Program-made: the position numbers and the translations under genes | Notes under the pieces: generated by a model | Seen by the model: only the letters and a program-made list of their open reading frames with translations | What the model was told of the DNA's origin: nothing | The model's database searches: none | Shown here: positions 9,131 to 39,438 of the stretch, piece by piece | How the letters are laid out: each line of letters starts with the position of its first letter | Numbering within the stretch: the stretch's first letter is position 1 | Virus record (IMG/VR): IMGVR_UViG_3300038701_002267 | Location: 1-39,438 of that record | DNA length: 39,438 nt | Strand: one strand, 5' to 3' | From: a virus

Positions 9131-9206
9131 CCTATAACGGACTTAGGTATAAATAAGCGATAACGACCCGTAGGGTTATTTATACCCCGTGTTAGCTATT
9201 GGTTGC
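9131..9206 (+). repeat. attC-like imperfect palindrome (site A1)
   Basis: An 11-bp perfect stem, GGTATAAATAA (9146-9156) with TTATTTATACC (9176-9186), lies inside outer arms TAACGG (9135-9140) and CCGTGTTA (9187-9194). The bounding AAC/GTT triplets and unpaired bases recall attC recombination sites. The right end, GTTAGCTATTGGTTGC (9191-9206), is repeated in inverted form after the next gene at 9767-9782 (13 of 16 match), as the core and inverse core of one cassette would be. The strict attC core GTTRRRY is not fully met. Confidence 0.6.
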
Positions 9207-9233
9207 GTAATTTAAGAACGAAAATTTATTGAA

Positions 9234-9767
9234 ATGGAAAAATATAGAGAAATCGAATTTGGCTTTGGAAACATTGAAGAAGCTGTAAAAGAATTGAAAA
9301 GCCACAAGGATTTAGTTTGTGGAATATTTAACGGACAAGTATTGTATTCGGATATTGATGATATTGACTCTGCTTACAAAAAAGTAACTGGAAAAACTAA
9401 AGCCGAATTTGATGAAGCAGAACGAAAAAGGCAAGCTGAATATGAACGTGAAAAGCGAGAACACGAAGCATCTATACCAAGACTTACCGAAGAGTGGATT
9501 GAAAAAGGCAATAAGATATTAGATAAGAAACACCACGATCTTTGGGCTAAAATAGTACCAATTAGATTAAAGGACTTATATAGAGGTTTTGAGCTTGGTG
9601 CTTGCCTTGATATTGTTGAGCAACTGAATAACAACTGTGAATTAAGTGAAGCTAAAACCACTATTGAAGAACAAGGACACTCTGGAATGTCTTTTGGTTT
9701 AGTTTGCTCAATGATACGTGAGTTATGCGATAGAGGTACTGAATTTGTCAATTATGCACGAGCCTAG
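9234..9767 (+). CDS. Cassette-like hypothetical protein
   Basis: 177 residues. A highly charged helical segment (about 55-90) is followed by a conserved-looking C-terminus with DLYRGFELGACLDIVEQL and EEQGHSGMSFGLVCSMIRELCDRGTEF. I recall this ending from hypothetical proteins in Bacteroidota and their phages, with no assigned function. The gene is bracketed by the inverted pair 9191-9206/9767-9782, and its TAG lies at the edge of the right arm. It interrupts the tail operon and is probably cargo, not part of the virion. Confidence 0.75.
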   Translation: MEKYREIEFGFGNIEEAVKELKSHKDLVCGIFNGQVLYSDIDDIDSAYKKVTGKTKAEFDEAERKRQAEYEREKREHEASIPRLTEEWIEKGNKILDKKHHDLWAKIVPIRLKDLYRGFELGACLDIVEQLNNNCELSEAKTTIEEQGHSGMSFGLVCSMIRELCDRGTEFVNYARA

Positions 9768-9873
9768 CAACTTGTAGCTAACGTTATGGCTATAAAGCGT
9801 AGTCAGTAATACGCTTTCAAATTAACAACAAGACCACATTTCTATGCTTTTATAGATTGTGTTGTGTGGCATT
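9767..9873 (+). repeat. attC-like imperfect palindrome (site A2)
   Basis: It starts with GCAACTTGTAGCTAAC (9767-9782), the inverse of the arm before the 9234 gene. CTATAAAGCGTA (9790-9801) pairs with TATGCTTTTATAG (about 9842-9854) with one bulged T. An alternative hairpin is AAAGCGTA with TACGCTTT (8 bp, 9794-9817). The right end, GTTGTGTGGCATT (9861-9873), recurs inverted at 10149-10161 after the next gene (12 of 13). Left TAAC at 9779 and right GTT at 9861 bound an interval of about 85 bp. Confidence 0.55.
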
Positions 9874-9877
9874 TATT

Positions 9878-10150
9878 ATGAAACTAGAATTAAAAATTTA
9901 TAGATGTTTATGCGAAACTGAAACATTTTTAGTAAATGGCATTGATGCAGAACACGAAGATTTTGGAACAAAAGGAGATAATAGCCCTGATACTGCTGAA
10001 GATTATGGGTGTGGAAACATGACATTTACGGGTAGTACTTCAACACCTGAAATATTAGAAAAATATAAAATAAACGAAAGTGAGTACTTAGAAATTGTAA
10101 GTGAGCTAGAAGATAAACTTTCTTTTGGGCGTTGTGGATGGTGTATATAA
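9878..10150 (+). CDS. Cassette-like Cys-containing hypothetical protein
   Basis: 90 residues from ATG 9878; the upstream in-frame TTG at 9857 lies inside the palindrome and is rejected. Features are YRCLCETETFLVNGIDAE, EDYGCGNMTFTG and a terminal LSFGRCGWCI; the paired cysteines suggest metal binding. I recall near relatives ending in 'LSFG.CGWCV' scattered through Bacteroidota chromosomes, which fits mobile cargo. It is bracketed by GTTGTGTGGCATT and its inverse, with the stop (TAA, 10148-10150) touching the right arm. Confidence 0.75.
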   Translation: MKLELKIYRCLCETETFLVNGIDAEHEDFGTKGDNSPDTAEDYGCGNMTFTGSTSTPEILEKYKINESEYLEIVSELEDKLSFGRCGWCI

Positions 10151-10195
10151 TGCCTCACAACGTCTCTGGGTATGGGGTCGGTTTTTTACGGATTA
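10149..10195 (+). repeat. Right end of cassette, half attC-like site (A3)
   Basis: AATGCCTCACAAC (10149-10161) is the inverse of 9861-9873. The rest of the gap to the next gene, about 35 bp containing GGGTATGGGGTCGG and TTTTTTACGG, does not fold into a clear stem, so this site looks incomplete or rearranged. Confidence 0.4.
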
Positions 10196-10208
10196 AATAA
10201 GGAAAATA

Positions 10209-33037: not shown

Positions 33038-33425
33038 ATATCAACTTCAATTCATTATCCCGGTAATAGTAATGATTGCTGCGATAATTGAAGCTTGGCG
33101 TGATGCAAAGCTAAACAATCCAGAGCATAACTTTAGCGCCCTTATTAGGGGTGCTTTTGTTATGGGTGTTTGTATTTGGTTGTTCTGGAAGACTTCATTG
33201 TTCTGGTATTGGTCAATCACATATTGGTTTGTTAATATGGGGTTCTTCTGGATTTTGTTTGATCTGGCTTACAACCGATTCAAAGGAAATGATTGGTTTT
33301 ATATTGGAGAAACGTCAAGTATAGATAAGTTAGCAAGAAAGTATATTGGTGCAGGAAATACGTATTTAGGAGTAAAGATTTTACTTACTATTCTTGCTGT
33401 GTGTGCTTATGTTTTATTTGATTAA
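33030..33425 (+). CDS. Multi-spanning membrane protein
   Basis: 131 residues with four hydrophobic segments: QLQFIIPVIVMIAAIIEAW, ALIRGAFVMGVCIWLFW, YWFVNMGFFWILFDLAY and YLGVKILLTILAVCAYVLF. Rich in Trp and Phe. It overlaps its neighbour by 8 nt. It could be a superinfection-immunity or membrane-modifying protein; no family recognised. Its stop TAA opens the TAAC of the first palindrome of the following cassette region. Confidence 0.65.
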   Translation: MTKYQLQFIIPVIVMIAAIIEAWRDAKLNNPEHNFSALIRGAFVMGVCIWLFWKTSLFWYWSITYWFVNMGFFWILFDLAYNRFKGNDWFYIGETSSIDKLARKYIGAGNTYLGVKILLTILAVCAYVLFD

Positions 33426-33452
33426 CGTATCGTGTATGAACTTTTAATTTAA
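33421..33452 (+). repeat. Left end of cassette-like unit (site B1)
   Basis: ATTAACG (33421-33427), GTGTAT (33432-33437) and TTAATTTAA (33444-33452) are repeated in inverted form beyond the next gene as TTAAATTAA (33612-33620), ATACAC (33628-33633) and CGTTAAT (33681-33687). Confidence 0.5.
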
Positions 33453-33458
33453 AACATT

Positions 33459-33620
33459 ATGAAAACAGAAAAGCAAATAAGAGATAAAATATCTGAAATG
33501 AAACAAGAGCTAAAGGTGTTTAAAGAAGAGCTTAGAAAAGACCCTACAAACAAAGATTTCAAAGAGGATGTGTATTACATAAAGCATAATATTAAACACC
33601 TTGAATGGGTTTTAAATTAA
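33459..33620 (+). CDS. 53-residue basic helical protein in cassette-like unit
   Basis: ATG 33459 to TAA 33618-33620, 53 residues, Lys/Glu-rich and helical (KQIRDKISEMKQELKVFKEELRK, then YYIKHNIKHLEWVLN). It is bracketed by inverted repeats on both sides with its stop inside the right arm. Probable coiled coil; function unknown. Confidence 0.65.
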   Translation: MKTEKQIRDKISEMKQELKVFKEELRKDPTNKDFKEDVYYIKHNIKHLEWVLN

Positions 33621-33687
33621 TTGTTTTATACACCTTGTTGTATGTCTTTTTTAATTGCATACAATGTTGAATGTATGAATCGTTAAT
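33611..33687 (+). repeat. attC-like imperfect palindrome (site B2)
   Basis: Perfect 7-bp stem TTGTATG (33638-33644)/CATACAA (33658-33664) inside weaker arms ATACAC (33628-33633)/ATGTAT (about 33671-33676). TGTATGAA recurs here as at the left end (33433), a direct repeat placed just before each of the two following genes. Confidence 0.55.
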
Positions 33688-33690
33688 ATT

Positions 33691-33993
33691 ATGGATGAAT
33701 TAAAGAAACACTTAGAGTCTGATATGTCGGACGAAGAAAAGAAAAAATTAAAAGAAGAATTGGAAGCACCTATAAATAGAGATAGTGACAACCAAAGCAC
33801 TAAATGGAATAATATTAATGATTCCATACATAGTGTTATGGCAAGTTTTGAGGTTGAATGCGAGAAAAGAATGGAGCAACTGAATTTAAAAGCATCAAGA
33901 CAATTCACAAATCCTAATCTACAACAATATACATCTGGACTTGCTGATGGCATACACGAAGCTCTGCAAACTCTTAAAAAGTATTTGCCATAA
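33691..33993 (+). CDS. Cassette-like acidic/helical hypothetical protein
   Basis: 100 residues. The N-terminal half is highly charged (KKHLESDMSDEEKKKLKEELEAP). The C-terminal part SRQFTNPNLQQYTSGLADGIHEALQTLKKYL reads as a helical pair. Its stop TAA forms the TAAC that opens the next palindrome. No family recognised. Confidence 0.65.
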   Translation: MDELKKHLESDMSDEEKKKLKEELEAPINRDSDNQSTKWNNINDSIHSVMASFEVECEKRMEQLNLKASRQFTNPNLQQYTSGLADGIHEALQTLKKYLP

Positions 33994-34057
33994 CTGAAAG
34001 AGTATATGCACCGTATGAGGAACGAATATGGGGTATATATGATGTTACCCACAGTAC
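33991..34057 (+). repeat. attC-like imperfect palindrome (site B3)
   Basis: TAAC (33991-33994) and GTTA (34044-34047) bound 57 bp. Inside, GTATATGCACC pairs with GGGGTATATAT (G-T wobbles and one mismatch). The right end TGTTACCCACAGTAC (34043-34057) is found inverted after the next gene at 34640-34654 (14 of 15), the strongest core/inverse-core pair of the set. Confidence 0.65.
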
Positions 34058-34085
34058 GGATTATTAAACTTAAAACATAAATAAA

Positions 34086-34640
34086 ATGAATACAACAGAA
34101 AAAGCATACAAAGAAATACTGAAAGCACTTAAAAAGTATAAAGCTGAAATAGTGTTTGATGTAAATAGTTTAGAAAGAGAAGCGAAACAACATTTATTTG
34201 GTGTAGAATTAGTGGAAAAATATGGTTTTAATTTAGACCCTAAAACCATACACAGTACAGACTGGCAAAAACTAAAAGAAAATGTATATATAGGTTTTTT
34301 TGATGGTGAACGTAGAAGTATATCTTGGTCTGACGATGGTAGACAGCCAAAAAACGAAACACTCCTTTACATAAGTTATCCAACTGGGGCTTATATTTTT
34401 GGTGGTGATTACCCTACTGAATTTTTTAAAAAGTTCTTTTTAGAGTTGAAAACATACAAGCCAAAATATATTGACTCAGCAAACAAAAGCCTTTACTTTT
34501 CTTTAGATAATGCTGGTAAAATTTATAATGCTTACGATTCCATTATAAAAAGGTATTACGAAGAAAACAAAGAGGATTTGAAGCAACGTAAGATAAAACA
34601 GATGAAATACGAATTATCTAAATTAGAATCACAGTCGTAG
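34086..34640 (+). CDS. Cassette-like hypothetical protein
   Basis: 184 residues, helical and basic at both ends with a beta-rich middle (ENVYIGFFDGERRSISWSDDGRQP, LLYISYPTGAYIFGGDYPTEFFKKFF). It lies between TGTTACCCACAGTAC and its inverse, with the TAG stop (34638-34640) touching the right arm. Unrecognised. Composition does not differ obviously from its neighbours. Confidence 0.7.
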   Translation: MNTTEKAYKEILKALKKYKAEIVFDVNSLEREAKQHLFGVELVEKYGFNLDPKTIHSTDWQKLKENVYIGFFDGERRSISWSDDGRQPKNETLLYISYPTGAYIFGGDYPTEFFKKFFLELKTYKPKYIDSANKSLYFSLDNAGKIYNAYDSIIKRYYEENKEDLKQRKIKQMKYELSKLESQS

Positions 34641-34697
34641 TATTGTGGGTAACACGTTTATATACGTGCGCTTTAGTGCTCGTTATATAAACTGTTA
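34640..34697 (+). repeat. attC-like imperfect palindrome (site B4)
   Basis: A 9-bp perfect stem GTTTATATA (34656-34664)/TATATAAAC (34684-34692), extended inward by CG/CG around a bulged T and outward by TAACA (34650-34654)/TGTTA (34693-34697). Bulged bases in an otherwise long stem and the AAC/GTT boundary resemble attC sites. The left arm (34640-34654) is the inverse of 34043-34057. Confidence 0.65.
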
Positions 34698-37557: not shown

Positions 37558-38163
37558 ATGGCAGCTCCATCTGGAAACCAATATTGGAAACTAAGAGACA
37601 AACACGGTAGAGATAAGGTTTTTTCTTCTCCCGAGGAAATGGCTCATGCTTTCGAAGAATACATTGAATTCACAAAAAACAGAACCGACTTTAACAAAGT
37701 TAGAGTTAAGAAAAACGTGATTAAACCACAAAATGAAGATTGTGATTTGTTGAGTCAAGACGAAATTGAAGTAATTACAAAAACAGTAGGAGTAGAGGAG
37801 CATACGGTTGAGGAAAGCCCAGTTCCGCTATCAGTAGGAGGGTTTTGTCTTCATGTGGGAGCTAGTAGTGCCTTTCTTAAGAATTTCGTGCTTAGGATAA
37901 ACGACGAAAAAGAAGGATTAGACCCTAATGATGACAAGGAAAAGGTAGAAGAAATTGAAGATTTTCTTGCTGTCATTGAGGTAATTAAAGAGGTTTGTCT
38001 TTACGATCAGCTTAATGGAGCTATGACAGGGGCTTATAAAGAGAACATTGTAGCCAGAATTAACAATATAACAGACGGGCTTGACAATAACATTGTAACT
38101 AAAAACAAAAGAGTAAGAAGGTTCTTTGATCCTGAAGGTCAGGAGATGGGAGACTTTGAATAA
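37558..38163 (+). CDS. terS: Terminase small subunit (gp3-like packaging protein)
   Basis: 201 residues. 'SGNQYWKLRDKHGRDKVFSSPEEMAHAFEEYIEFTKN' matches the opening of the phage DNA-packaging protein gp3 family; the middle 'PLSVGGFCLHVGASSAFLKNF' is the HTH-like part, and a helical C-terminus (YDQLNGAMTGAYKENIVARINNITDGL) is the oligomerisation and TerL-binding part. It recognises the packaging site and recruits TerL. Three small genes lie between it and terL, slightly unusual. Confidence 0.85.
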   Translation: MAAPSGNQYWKLRDKHGRDKVFSSPEEMAHAFEEYIEFTKNRTDFNKVRVKKNVIKPQNEDCDLLSQDEIEVITKTVGVEEHTVEESPVPLSVGGFCLHVGASSAFLKNFVLRINDEKEGLDPNDDKEKVEEIEDFLAVIEVIKEVCLYDQLNGAMTGAYKENIVARINNITDGLDNNIVTKNKRVRRFFDPEGQEMGDFE

Positions 38164-38181
38164 TTTTAAACAAATAATAAC

Positions 38182-38631
38182 ATGGAAAATAAACTAGAAC
38201 TAAAACACTTAGCCCCTTACTTGCCTTATGGGTTAAGATTATTAGCGCACAATGAAGAACTCAAGCTTACAGGAATAACACCGCATTGTGGTGACATAAA
38301 ACTTTCTCTACTTACAATAAATAGTGGGATAGAGTATTGGTGCTATATTGAGTACGCAAAACCTACCCTAAGACCTTTGTCGGATTTGAATGAAGAAATA
38401 ACGCACAACGGGAAGACTTTTAAGCCTTATGTTGAGTTATTGAGAGCTTCTAATTTTGACGTTGATAACATGCACCAACAAGAGTTAAATAGGTTTAAAT
38501 GGAACACTCAAGACCATATAGAAATAAAGTCCTATTATGAAATGGAGCTTATATTTGAATGGCACTTCGACGTATTCGGCTTAATAAAGAAAGGACTTGC
38601 AATAGATGTTAAGGAGGTGAAAATATGGTAA
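38182..38631 (+). CDS. Bacteroidota phage conserved hypothetical protein
   Basis: 149 residues. 'LAPYLPYGLRLLAHNEELKLTG', 'PTLRPLSDLNEEI' and 'YYEMELIFEWHFDVFGLIKKGLAIDV' form a pattern I recognise from many Bacteroidota phages, function unassigned. AATAATAACATG start. It overlaps the next gene by 7 nt. Confidence 0.75.
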   Translation: MENKLELKHLAPYLPYGLRLLAHNEELKLTGITPHCGDIKLSLLTINSGIEYWCYIEYAKPTLRPLSDLNEEITHNGKTFKPYVELLRASNFDVDNMHQQELNRFKWNTQDHIEIKSYYEMELIFEWHFDVFGLIKKGLAIDVKEVKIW

Positions 38632-38897
38632 AGTTTTTTAAATGGTATTTTAGACCTAACTGGTGGCATATATTGTGTTTGACATTAGTATATGTTTGGC
38701 TTTGCGTTTCTATTAGAGGTCTTAAATCTGAACATGATGAGGATGTTATATACATGTATGACTACCAAAAATTAATATCTAATCTAGTTGTGAAGAACGA
38801 TTCATTGATTGGTGTGTTAGCTAAAAACAAATTAGCATCTGATTCGGTTATATTATCTAATAGAGAAAGGATAAAAAAAATTGAAAAGAATGACTAA
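38625..38897 (+). CDS. Single-pass membrane protein
   Basis: 90 residues. Hydrophobic N-terminal helix (WHILCLTLVYVWLCVSI) and a charged, partly coiled C-terminal part. Ribosome site AAGGAGGTGA (38612-38621 region), as at 35734. Layout is like an inner-membrane spanin but its place next to terminase makes that doubtful. Confidence 0.65.
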   Translation: MVKFFKWYFRPNWWHILCLTLVYVWLCVSIRGLKSEHDEDVIYMYDYQKLISNLVVKNDSLIGVLAKNKLASDSVILSNRERIKKIEKND

Positions 38898-39267
38898 ACA
38901 AGAAAAAGAAAGGTTTTTTGCTCTTTATTGGGGGCAAGAAGTGTTTTGTCTTGATAAAGATCATCAATCAGGAGACATTAAACATTATATTAATGACGAT
39001 TGGTCAGAGTCTTATCTAGAACTTTATTCTTTAGAAGATATTACTGAGGAAGATTGGAATTGGATAGATACGTATTCTGGTGATGTGTTTTCTGATAAGG
39101 ATTTTATATTGGAAAGGTTTGAAAATGGATATAGTTTAAACAATGTTTCAAGCGGCTCAACATTGATAATTTCGGACTATCTTAGATCAAAAGGTTACGC
39201 ATTACCTTGGATGGGATTGTCAGTAGAAGATATGGTTGAAGTAGGGTGGATTAAACTTAAGGGATAA
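38890..39267 (+). CDS. Bacteroidota phage conserved hypothetical protein
   Basis: 125 residues from ATG 38890 (a TTG at 38881 would add 3). The pattern 'ERFFALYWGQEV', 'LIISDYLRSKGYALPWMGLSVEDMVEVGWIKL' is familiar from Bacteroidota phages, no function known. It ends 2 bases before the TTG start of terL. Confidence 0.75.
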   Translation: MTKQEKERFFALYWGQEVFCLDKDHQSGDIKHYINDDWSESYLELYSLEDITEEDWNWIDTYSGDVFSDKDFILERFENGYSLNNVSSGSTLIISDYLRSKGYALPWMGLSVEDMVEVGWIKLKG

Positions 39268-39269
39268 AT

Positions 39270-39438
39270 TTGTCTTGGTTCTCCTTAAAATATAAGCCAC
39301 TATTCGACCTTCCTAAAGCTCAAGAGGCTATAAAAAGTGAAGATTTTGATTCTTGGAGCAAAGAAAAACAAGAGTATTGGACTCAGCTTTCCGAGGTTGA
39401 AACCGTGATAATGACAGGGGGGCGTGGCTCAGGTAAAT
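39270..39438 (+). CDS. terL: Terminase large subunit, N-terminal part (TerL)
   Basis: The frame opens after TAA 39258-39260; the first plausible start is TTG at 39270, giving LSWFSLKYKPLFDLPKAQEA, of which 'KYKPLF' is a usual terminase opening. It continues in frame into base 1 of the window. No ATG or GTG occurs before the internal Met at 94. AAGGGA at 39258-39263 may serve as ribosome site. Residue 15 is Pro here and Thr in the left copy, because of the single mismatch at 39312/1. Confidence 0.85.
   Translation, partial: MSWFSLKYKPLFDLPKAQEAIKSEDFDSWSKEKQEYWTQLSEVETVIMTGGRGSGK
39312..39438. repeat. Terminal direct repeat, right copy
   Basis: 39313-39438 equals 2-127 exactly. See the left copy; together they close the circle at about 39.3 kb. 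Confidence 0.95.

Follow-up and report, generated by a model that had tools for sequence, protein, structure and literature searches.

Gene cassettes in a phage tail operon point to an integron-like system of Bacteroidota and their phages linked to a separate clade of tyrosine recombinases

Two consecutive genes in the tail operon of a phage are each enclosed by inverted repeats that match within the gene unit: what are these units, and what moves them? The window in which they lie, the whole stretch of DNA analysed, comprises the 39,438 nucleotides of IMG/VR record IMGVR_UViG_3300038701_002267, and a preliminary description had read the two genes as integron-like cassettes. Integrons have been reported to be rare in Bacteroidetes (IntegronFinder 2.0, PMC9024848), and integron activity is held to require the domain specific to the integrase IntI (Messier and Roy 2001, as cited in PMC9668308). 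Here, we compare the window with other phages and with Bacteroidota chromosomes, and conclude from sequence evidence that its genes are very probably mobile cassettes, part of an integron-like system found in Bacteroidota as well as in their phages and presumably run by a recombinase family that we call A2. A cassette in this proposal would consist of a gene between a GTT core and an inverse AAC core, together with an attC-like hairpin.

All features of the window described below lie on the plus strand. Cassette 1 extends from core to core over 9191–9782 (GTTAGCTATTGGTTGC ... GCAACTTGTAGCTAAC) and contains a gene for a 177-aa protein (9234–9767); its arms, at 9191–9206 and 9767–9782, are 81% complementary. 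Cassette 2 (9861–10161, GTTGTGTGGCATT ... AATGCCTCACAAC) contains a gene for a 90-aa protein (9878–10150), with one arm starting at 9861 and the AAC core of the other at 10159–10161. Both pairs of repeats are thus present where they had been described. Arm scores within the cassettes are 17.5 for cassette 1 and 20.5 for cassette 2 in its correct register, and pairings across the two cassettes score only 4 and 0.5, so the claim that core and inverse core match inside a cassette and differ between neighbours is borne out. A random GTT/AAC pair of the window has a chance of 0.0006 of reaching the score of cassette 1 and of 0.0018 of reaching that of cassette 2 (in a register shifted by two bases, scoring 16.5), which is modest to weak support because the pairs had been picked in the preliminary description.

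Upstream of each gene lies an attC-like imperfect palindrome with an unpaired spacer that could fold as a single strand: site 1 (AACG ... GTGTT, 9136–9193) before gene 1, with a DNA fold z of −2.6 to −2.8, and site 2 (9780–9863) before gene 2. We searched the whole window on both strands with R1, a covariance model trained on 60 sites from elsewhere, phages as well as genomes, with the window excluded. Site 2 ranked first (26.5 bits, E 4.9e-4) and site 1 second (24.6 bits, E 1.3e-3), both on the predicted strand, and the next best position reached 16.3 bits. A second model, R2, derived from 150 sites of other phages, gave 29.5 bits (E 6e-4) for site 2 and just 19.4 bits (E 0.07) for site 1. 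The window sites are short and their scores modest, site 1 missing E 0.05 with R2, and model E-values are rough; the site detector and R1 presuppose AAC/GTT ends, and R1 was also tried on loci outside its training set. A plain hairpin detector with neither arm matching nor a model proved too noisy and was dropped.

The long palindromes that had been proposed for the gaps hold for these two, the top two R1 matches, and not for the gap after gene 2. There, AACGTCTCTGGGTATGGGGTCGG (10159–10182) resembles the left part of another such site, the third, that has been truncated and has lost its right half; it carries TATG at the same offset as the A3 consensus and gives no covariance-model match. The window cores GTTAGCT, GTTGTGT and GTTACCC do not fit the classical GTTRRRY/RYYYAAC consensus, to which the preliminary description had seen a partial fit. 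A search of the window phage with PF00589 returned no matches, in agreement with the preliminary description: the window itself holds no integron integrase. It has no attI either. Orphan attC clusters (CALINs) are defined by two or more attC sites with no integrase close by; the window has two sites and no integrase, but these sites are of the R1 family rather than classical attC. An empty site would appear as a tail operon joining TTATTACCTATAAC to the sequence past 10161; we found no relatives of the window tail proteins in IMG/VR in which to look for it, and megablast of the first 20 kb of the window against INPHARED gave no match.

Related cassettes occur, as had been anticipated, in Bacteroidota contigs and in phages. 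For the gene of cassette 1, the closest relative at the DNA level is in a contig of a Flavobacteriaceae metagenome-assembled genome (MAG; L013), 85% identical over window positions 9190–9782, that is from core to core, where the homology ends. Its arms, GTTACCTACTGGTTGC/GCAACTTGTAGGTAAC as against GTTAGCTATTGGTTGC/GCAACTTGTAGCTAAC in the window, carry a compensatory double change (GTTACCTA/TAGGTAAC in L013) on the two sides of a 560-bp gap. Relatives of the 177-aa protein, a recurrent cassette cargo in Bacteroidota phages, were found in L002–L011 and L013–L015. In L005 and L014 the gene is enclosed by other cores that match each other, and it belongs to arrays of four to nine boundary-matched palindromes in three contigs from phages and in one from a Bacteroidota MAG; a tyrosine recombinase adjoins all three of those phage arrays. 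Flanking arms are absent in L006, L007 and L010; none of these was found to be a related phage with the gene in the corresponding position, which is what the preliminary description had named as contrary to its reading. The protein has no Pfam match above the curated cut-off; its AlphaFold model is confident (pLDDT 92.6), and a fold search returned no PDB match at E ≤ 0.001 and one uncharacterised viral match. The 90-aa protein has a single viral relative (L012, 53% amino acid identity), with no arms flanking the gene.

A second cassette region, overlooked in the preliminary description, lies at 33424–34696 and comprises three sites and a gene for a 184-aa protein. Cassette 3 (34044–34653, GTTACCCACAGTAC ... 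GTATTGTGGGTAAC, gene at 34086–34640) is preceded by an attC-like site at 33992–34046 (R2, 23.7 bits, E 0.009, second in the window; R1, 15.3 bits) and followed by a short attC-like hairpin of 46 nt (AACACGTTTATAT...ATATAAACTGTT, 34651–34696). The same cassette is present in two other phages, with 92% DNA identity over 34034–34653 (L277) and 85% over 34027–34655 (L278); homology stops at the cores or at most 17 nt from them, and the flanks differ and do not align. Further upstream, at 33424–33639, is a candidate site (hairpin score 28.5) with a complete 53-aa open reading frame inside its loop; open reading frames start in site loops elsewhere too, for example in L036.

The recombinase beside such arrays is related to IntI and separate from it. 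TIGR02249, the integron integrase family, scores 138–211 bits on the five A2 proteins tested, short of its cut-off of 265, and ranks above XerC/D; the best NCBIfam match is NF040815. In the alignment, A2 lacks the IntI-specific insertion, the integron-specific additional domain. Trees place IntI, A2 and XerC/D apart, with A2 as one clade at an SH-aLRT of 84–91, under 95. Many chromosomal A2 proteins have an N-terminal extension of about 75–190 aa that contains a W..WYLP-like motif and matches nothing in Pfam (for example L136:4015-5058 and L023:1276-2676).

Scanning IMG/VR with A2 yielded 270 encoding contigs, of which we analysed the best 80; among these at least L254–L256 and L228/L232 resemble duplicates. 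R1 sites occur at 48 of the 52 phage A2 loci with at least 2 kb upstream, and all 243 listed R1 matches, from 78 phage loci, are on the strand of the integrase, as are all chains of at least three sites (34 of the 80 loci). Just before the integrase gene, AACTATTATATAT is found with at most two mismatches at 64 of 74 phage A2 loci, compared with 19 of 1478 background windows. The cassette ends that precede this motif differ among loci, and a constant AACTATTATATAT behind varied cassette ends is what an attI predicts; most of these A2 phages have an attI-like site beside the integrase gene.

The sites have a defined polarity. On the strand of the phage cassette genes they read AACG, 4–7 unpaired nucleotides, stem, loop, stem, 2–3 unpaired nucleotides and GTT, and canonical attC sites beside true IntI have the same shape on the strand opposite their genes. 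Genes are accordingly inverted relative to the site in the phage arrays, the array of L014, Polaribacter phage P12002L and the window. They run in the canonical direction in chromosomal A2 arrays, and in 32 of 33 true IntI arrays. Phage cassette genes face the attI, the reverse of the classical arrangement, and in chromosomes the integrase faces the array in most A2 cases. We can only guess that the inversion would let an upstream phage promoter read the cassettes with the operon. We discarded an alternative layout that placed a hairpin 3′ of each gene and the attI on the left, since the array end on the integrase side is a simple core without a hairpin, both in the first three phage arrays and in the chromosomal arrays inspected. 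Within the family, 16 of 17 pairs show two-sided compensation across the 60 R1 sites, and the irregularities of the hairpin include conserved G-T positions, one pair being G-U in 45 of the 60 sequences.

Could these instead be classical integron cassettes, with ordinary attC sites that a host-encoded true IntI mobilises, and A2 merely an unrelated neighbour? We examined 247 genomes of Bacteroidota, the phylum of the MAG with an array, scoring R1 on at most 14 candidates per genome and calling A2 at a best E ≤ 1e-60, where scores split from XerC/D; 81 genomes were positive. In favour of this alternative, true IntI scores above the curated cut-off in 70 of the 247, more than the survey of complete genomes suggests (PMC9024848), and R1 sites share the asymmetry of canonical attC on the other strand. 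Yet R1 sites, present in 130 genomes, go with A2: they occur in 72 of the 81 genomes in which A2 was called and in 58 of the other 166 (Fisher p 1e-16). Their association with IntI is not positive (29 of 70 genomes with IntI, 101 of 177 without). Chains of at least three matched sites occur in 10 of 40 A2 regions and in none of 20 XerC/D regions, and most of the remaining A2 regions contain R1 matches. Conversely, canonical Bacteroidota attC arrays beside true IntI reach just 22–29 bits with R1, on the opposite strand, and the attI-like motif is located at A2 genes. The 58 genomes that have R1 sites and no detected A2 count against an A2 explanation.

The classical reading also draws on published phage CALINs. 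Orphan attC clusters have been described in phages including P12002L, and IntI1 was active on five of six sites tested (Qi 2023, PMC9892861). P12002L has three R1 matches and an array of the type seen here at 37.9–39.3 kb; on the minus strand, 37950–39330 holds a DNA methyltransferase cassette with arms of about 29 nt that is likely the published CALIN. One member of the family may therefore already be known under a classical name. The site P12002L_attC2, which is reported to have recombined with IntI1 (PMC9892861), may be one of the R1 sites of this phage. That study found sites with classical attC models and tested them with IntI1, and its accessible part does not describe A2, the site family or the attI-like motif. 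We consider movement by a host IntI improbable, also in light of the phage isolates below, and regard the sites as a Bacteroidota family linked to recombinase clade A2 rather than classical GTTRRRY attC. What stands of the integron-cassette claim for the window is that its genes are cassettes bounded by attC-like sites; the sites do not belong to the classical IntI set, and the genes are inverted relative to them.

Cassette gain and loss can be followed in Polaribacter phages Freya_1 to Freya_10, isolated on one host (PMC8776804). Across its full 43,978 nt, Freya_1 matches Freya_10 with 100% identity, and Freya_10 has in addition a single 4,942-bp cassette block directly upstream of the integrase gene. 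Intermediate states exist in Freya_5, 6, 8 and 9: an internal block is missing from Freya_8, the unit nearest the integrase is missing from Freya_9, and Freya_6 has a unit of its own at that position. All five breakpoints among the isolates compared fall just after an AAC core, and the junction on the integrase side is invariably AAC followed directly by ACCCCTATAACAAC, a comparison that indicates recombination of whole cassettes at the core. With 186 bits, the integrase of Freya is divergent for A2, but the tree places it with that clade, and the Freya annotation contains no IntI; cassettes here change at an attI-like site beside an A2 integrase, contrary to what movement by a classical IntI would lead one to expect.

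Phage genomes are mosaic, and hairpins can favour template switching. On that ground, cassette-like units might be shuffled without a dedicated recombinase, through homologous or illegitimate recombination between hairpins that resemble each other, but the Freya breakpoints all lie at AAC although neighbouring hairpins differ in sequence, a constant attachment motif occupies a fixed place before the recombinase gene, and the arms of the L013 cassette have coevolved; we give this explanation very little credence. That the repeats arose by chance in AT-rich phage DNA, together with terminators of transcription, has next to no probability, for while arm scores of 16–25 do arise elsewhere in the window by chance, R1 places exactly these two spots first and second and the homology with L013 starts and stops at the cores, which already contradicts such a reading.

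Each Freya unit includes its hairpin, located upstream of the gene. One cassette can nevertheless have unlike hairpins beside it in different phages, as a comparison of L277, L278 and L013 with the window illustrates. This counts against the proposal, and hairpins either evolve fast or are exchanged.

We therefore return to the A2 system and its presumed mechanism. Arrays, attI-like motif, linkage to the recombinase and the exact gains and losses in Freya are all seen in the sequences compared. The A2 tyrosine recombinase would insert and remove cassettes at GTT/AAC cores, its partners being the hairpin sites and the attI-like site beside its own gene (AAC followed directly by TATTATATAT in most phages). 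A2 is the putative catalyst, and the structure of the sites suggests a folded single strand as its substrate. The window phage has no recombinase of its own, so the enzyme of a host or of a co-infecting phage probably placed the cassettes in secondary sites, as orphan clusters like CALINs.

The system shares with integrons an integrase gene with an attachment site alongside, single-gene cassettes that form arrays and whose core and inverse core match, imperfect palindromes that include an unpaired spacer, and breakpoints at the GTT/AAC core. Unlike integrons, it has an integrase without the IntI-specific insertion, does not require GTTRRRY, has conserved G-T positions in the hairpin, has phage cassette genes inverted with respect to site and attI, and in most chromosomal cases has an integrase that faces the array. 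That last orientation recalls the reverse integrons of Treponema, which use true IntI, whereas A2 lacks its insertion. A2 belongs to the same fold family as XerC/XerD and archaeal XerA, with NF040815 its best NCBIfam match, but the 20 XerC/XerD regions examined lack cassette arrays, and XerC/XerD fall apart from A2 in the tree. Modules here end in hairpins; Xer-dependent pdif modules have 28-bp XerC/XerD sites at their ends. The system resembles the phage CALINs (PMC9892861) in its orphan clusters, present in virulent phages and loaded with methyltransferase cargo. We found no description of the A2 system in the open-access papers searched.

Taken together, these features likely define another lineage of integrons, the second: a clade of recombinases separate from IntI and devoid of the "necessary" domain, with its own attI and attC-like families, inverted phage cassettes and a turnover fast enough to show among isolates of one phage. 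On this reading the A2 system is probably present in about a third of the Bacteroidota species sampled and in hundreds of phage contigs. A widespread relative lacking the IntI domain would, if confirmed, change both the statement that integrons are rare in this group and the statement that the domain is necessary, and the origin of hairpin recognition would become testable. The integrases of Polaribacter phages Freya and Leef and of Cellulophaga phage Ingeline have been taken as signs of a possible temperate life style (PMC8776804); the Freya gene sits at a variable cassette attachment site, which suggests that a phage "integrase" need not imply a temperate life style. If the proposal is right, phages would bear accessory genes, methyltransferases among them, and trade them cassette by cassette.
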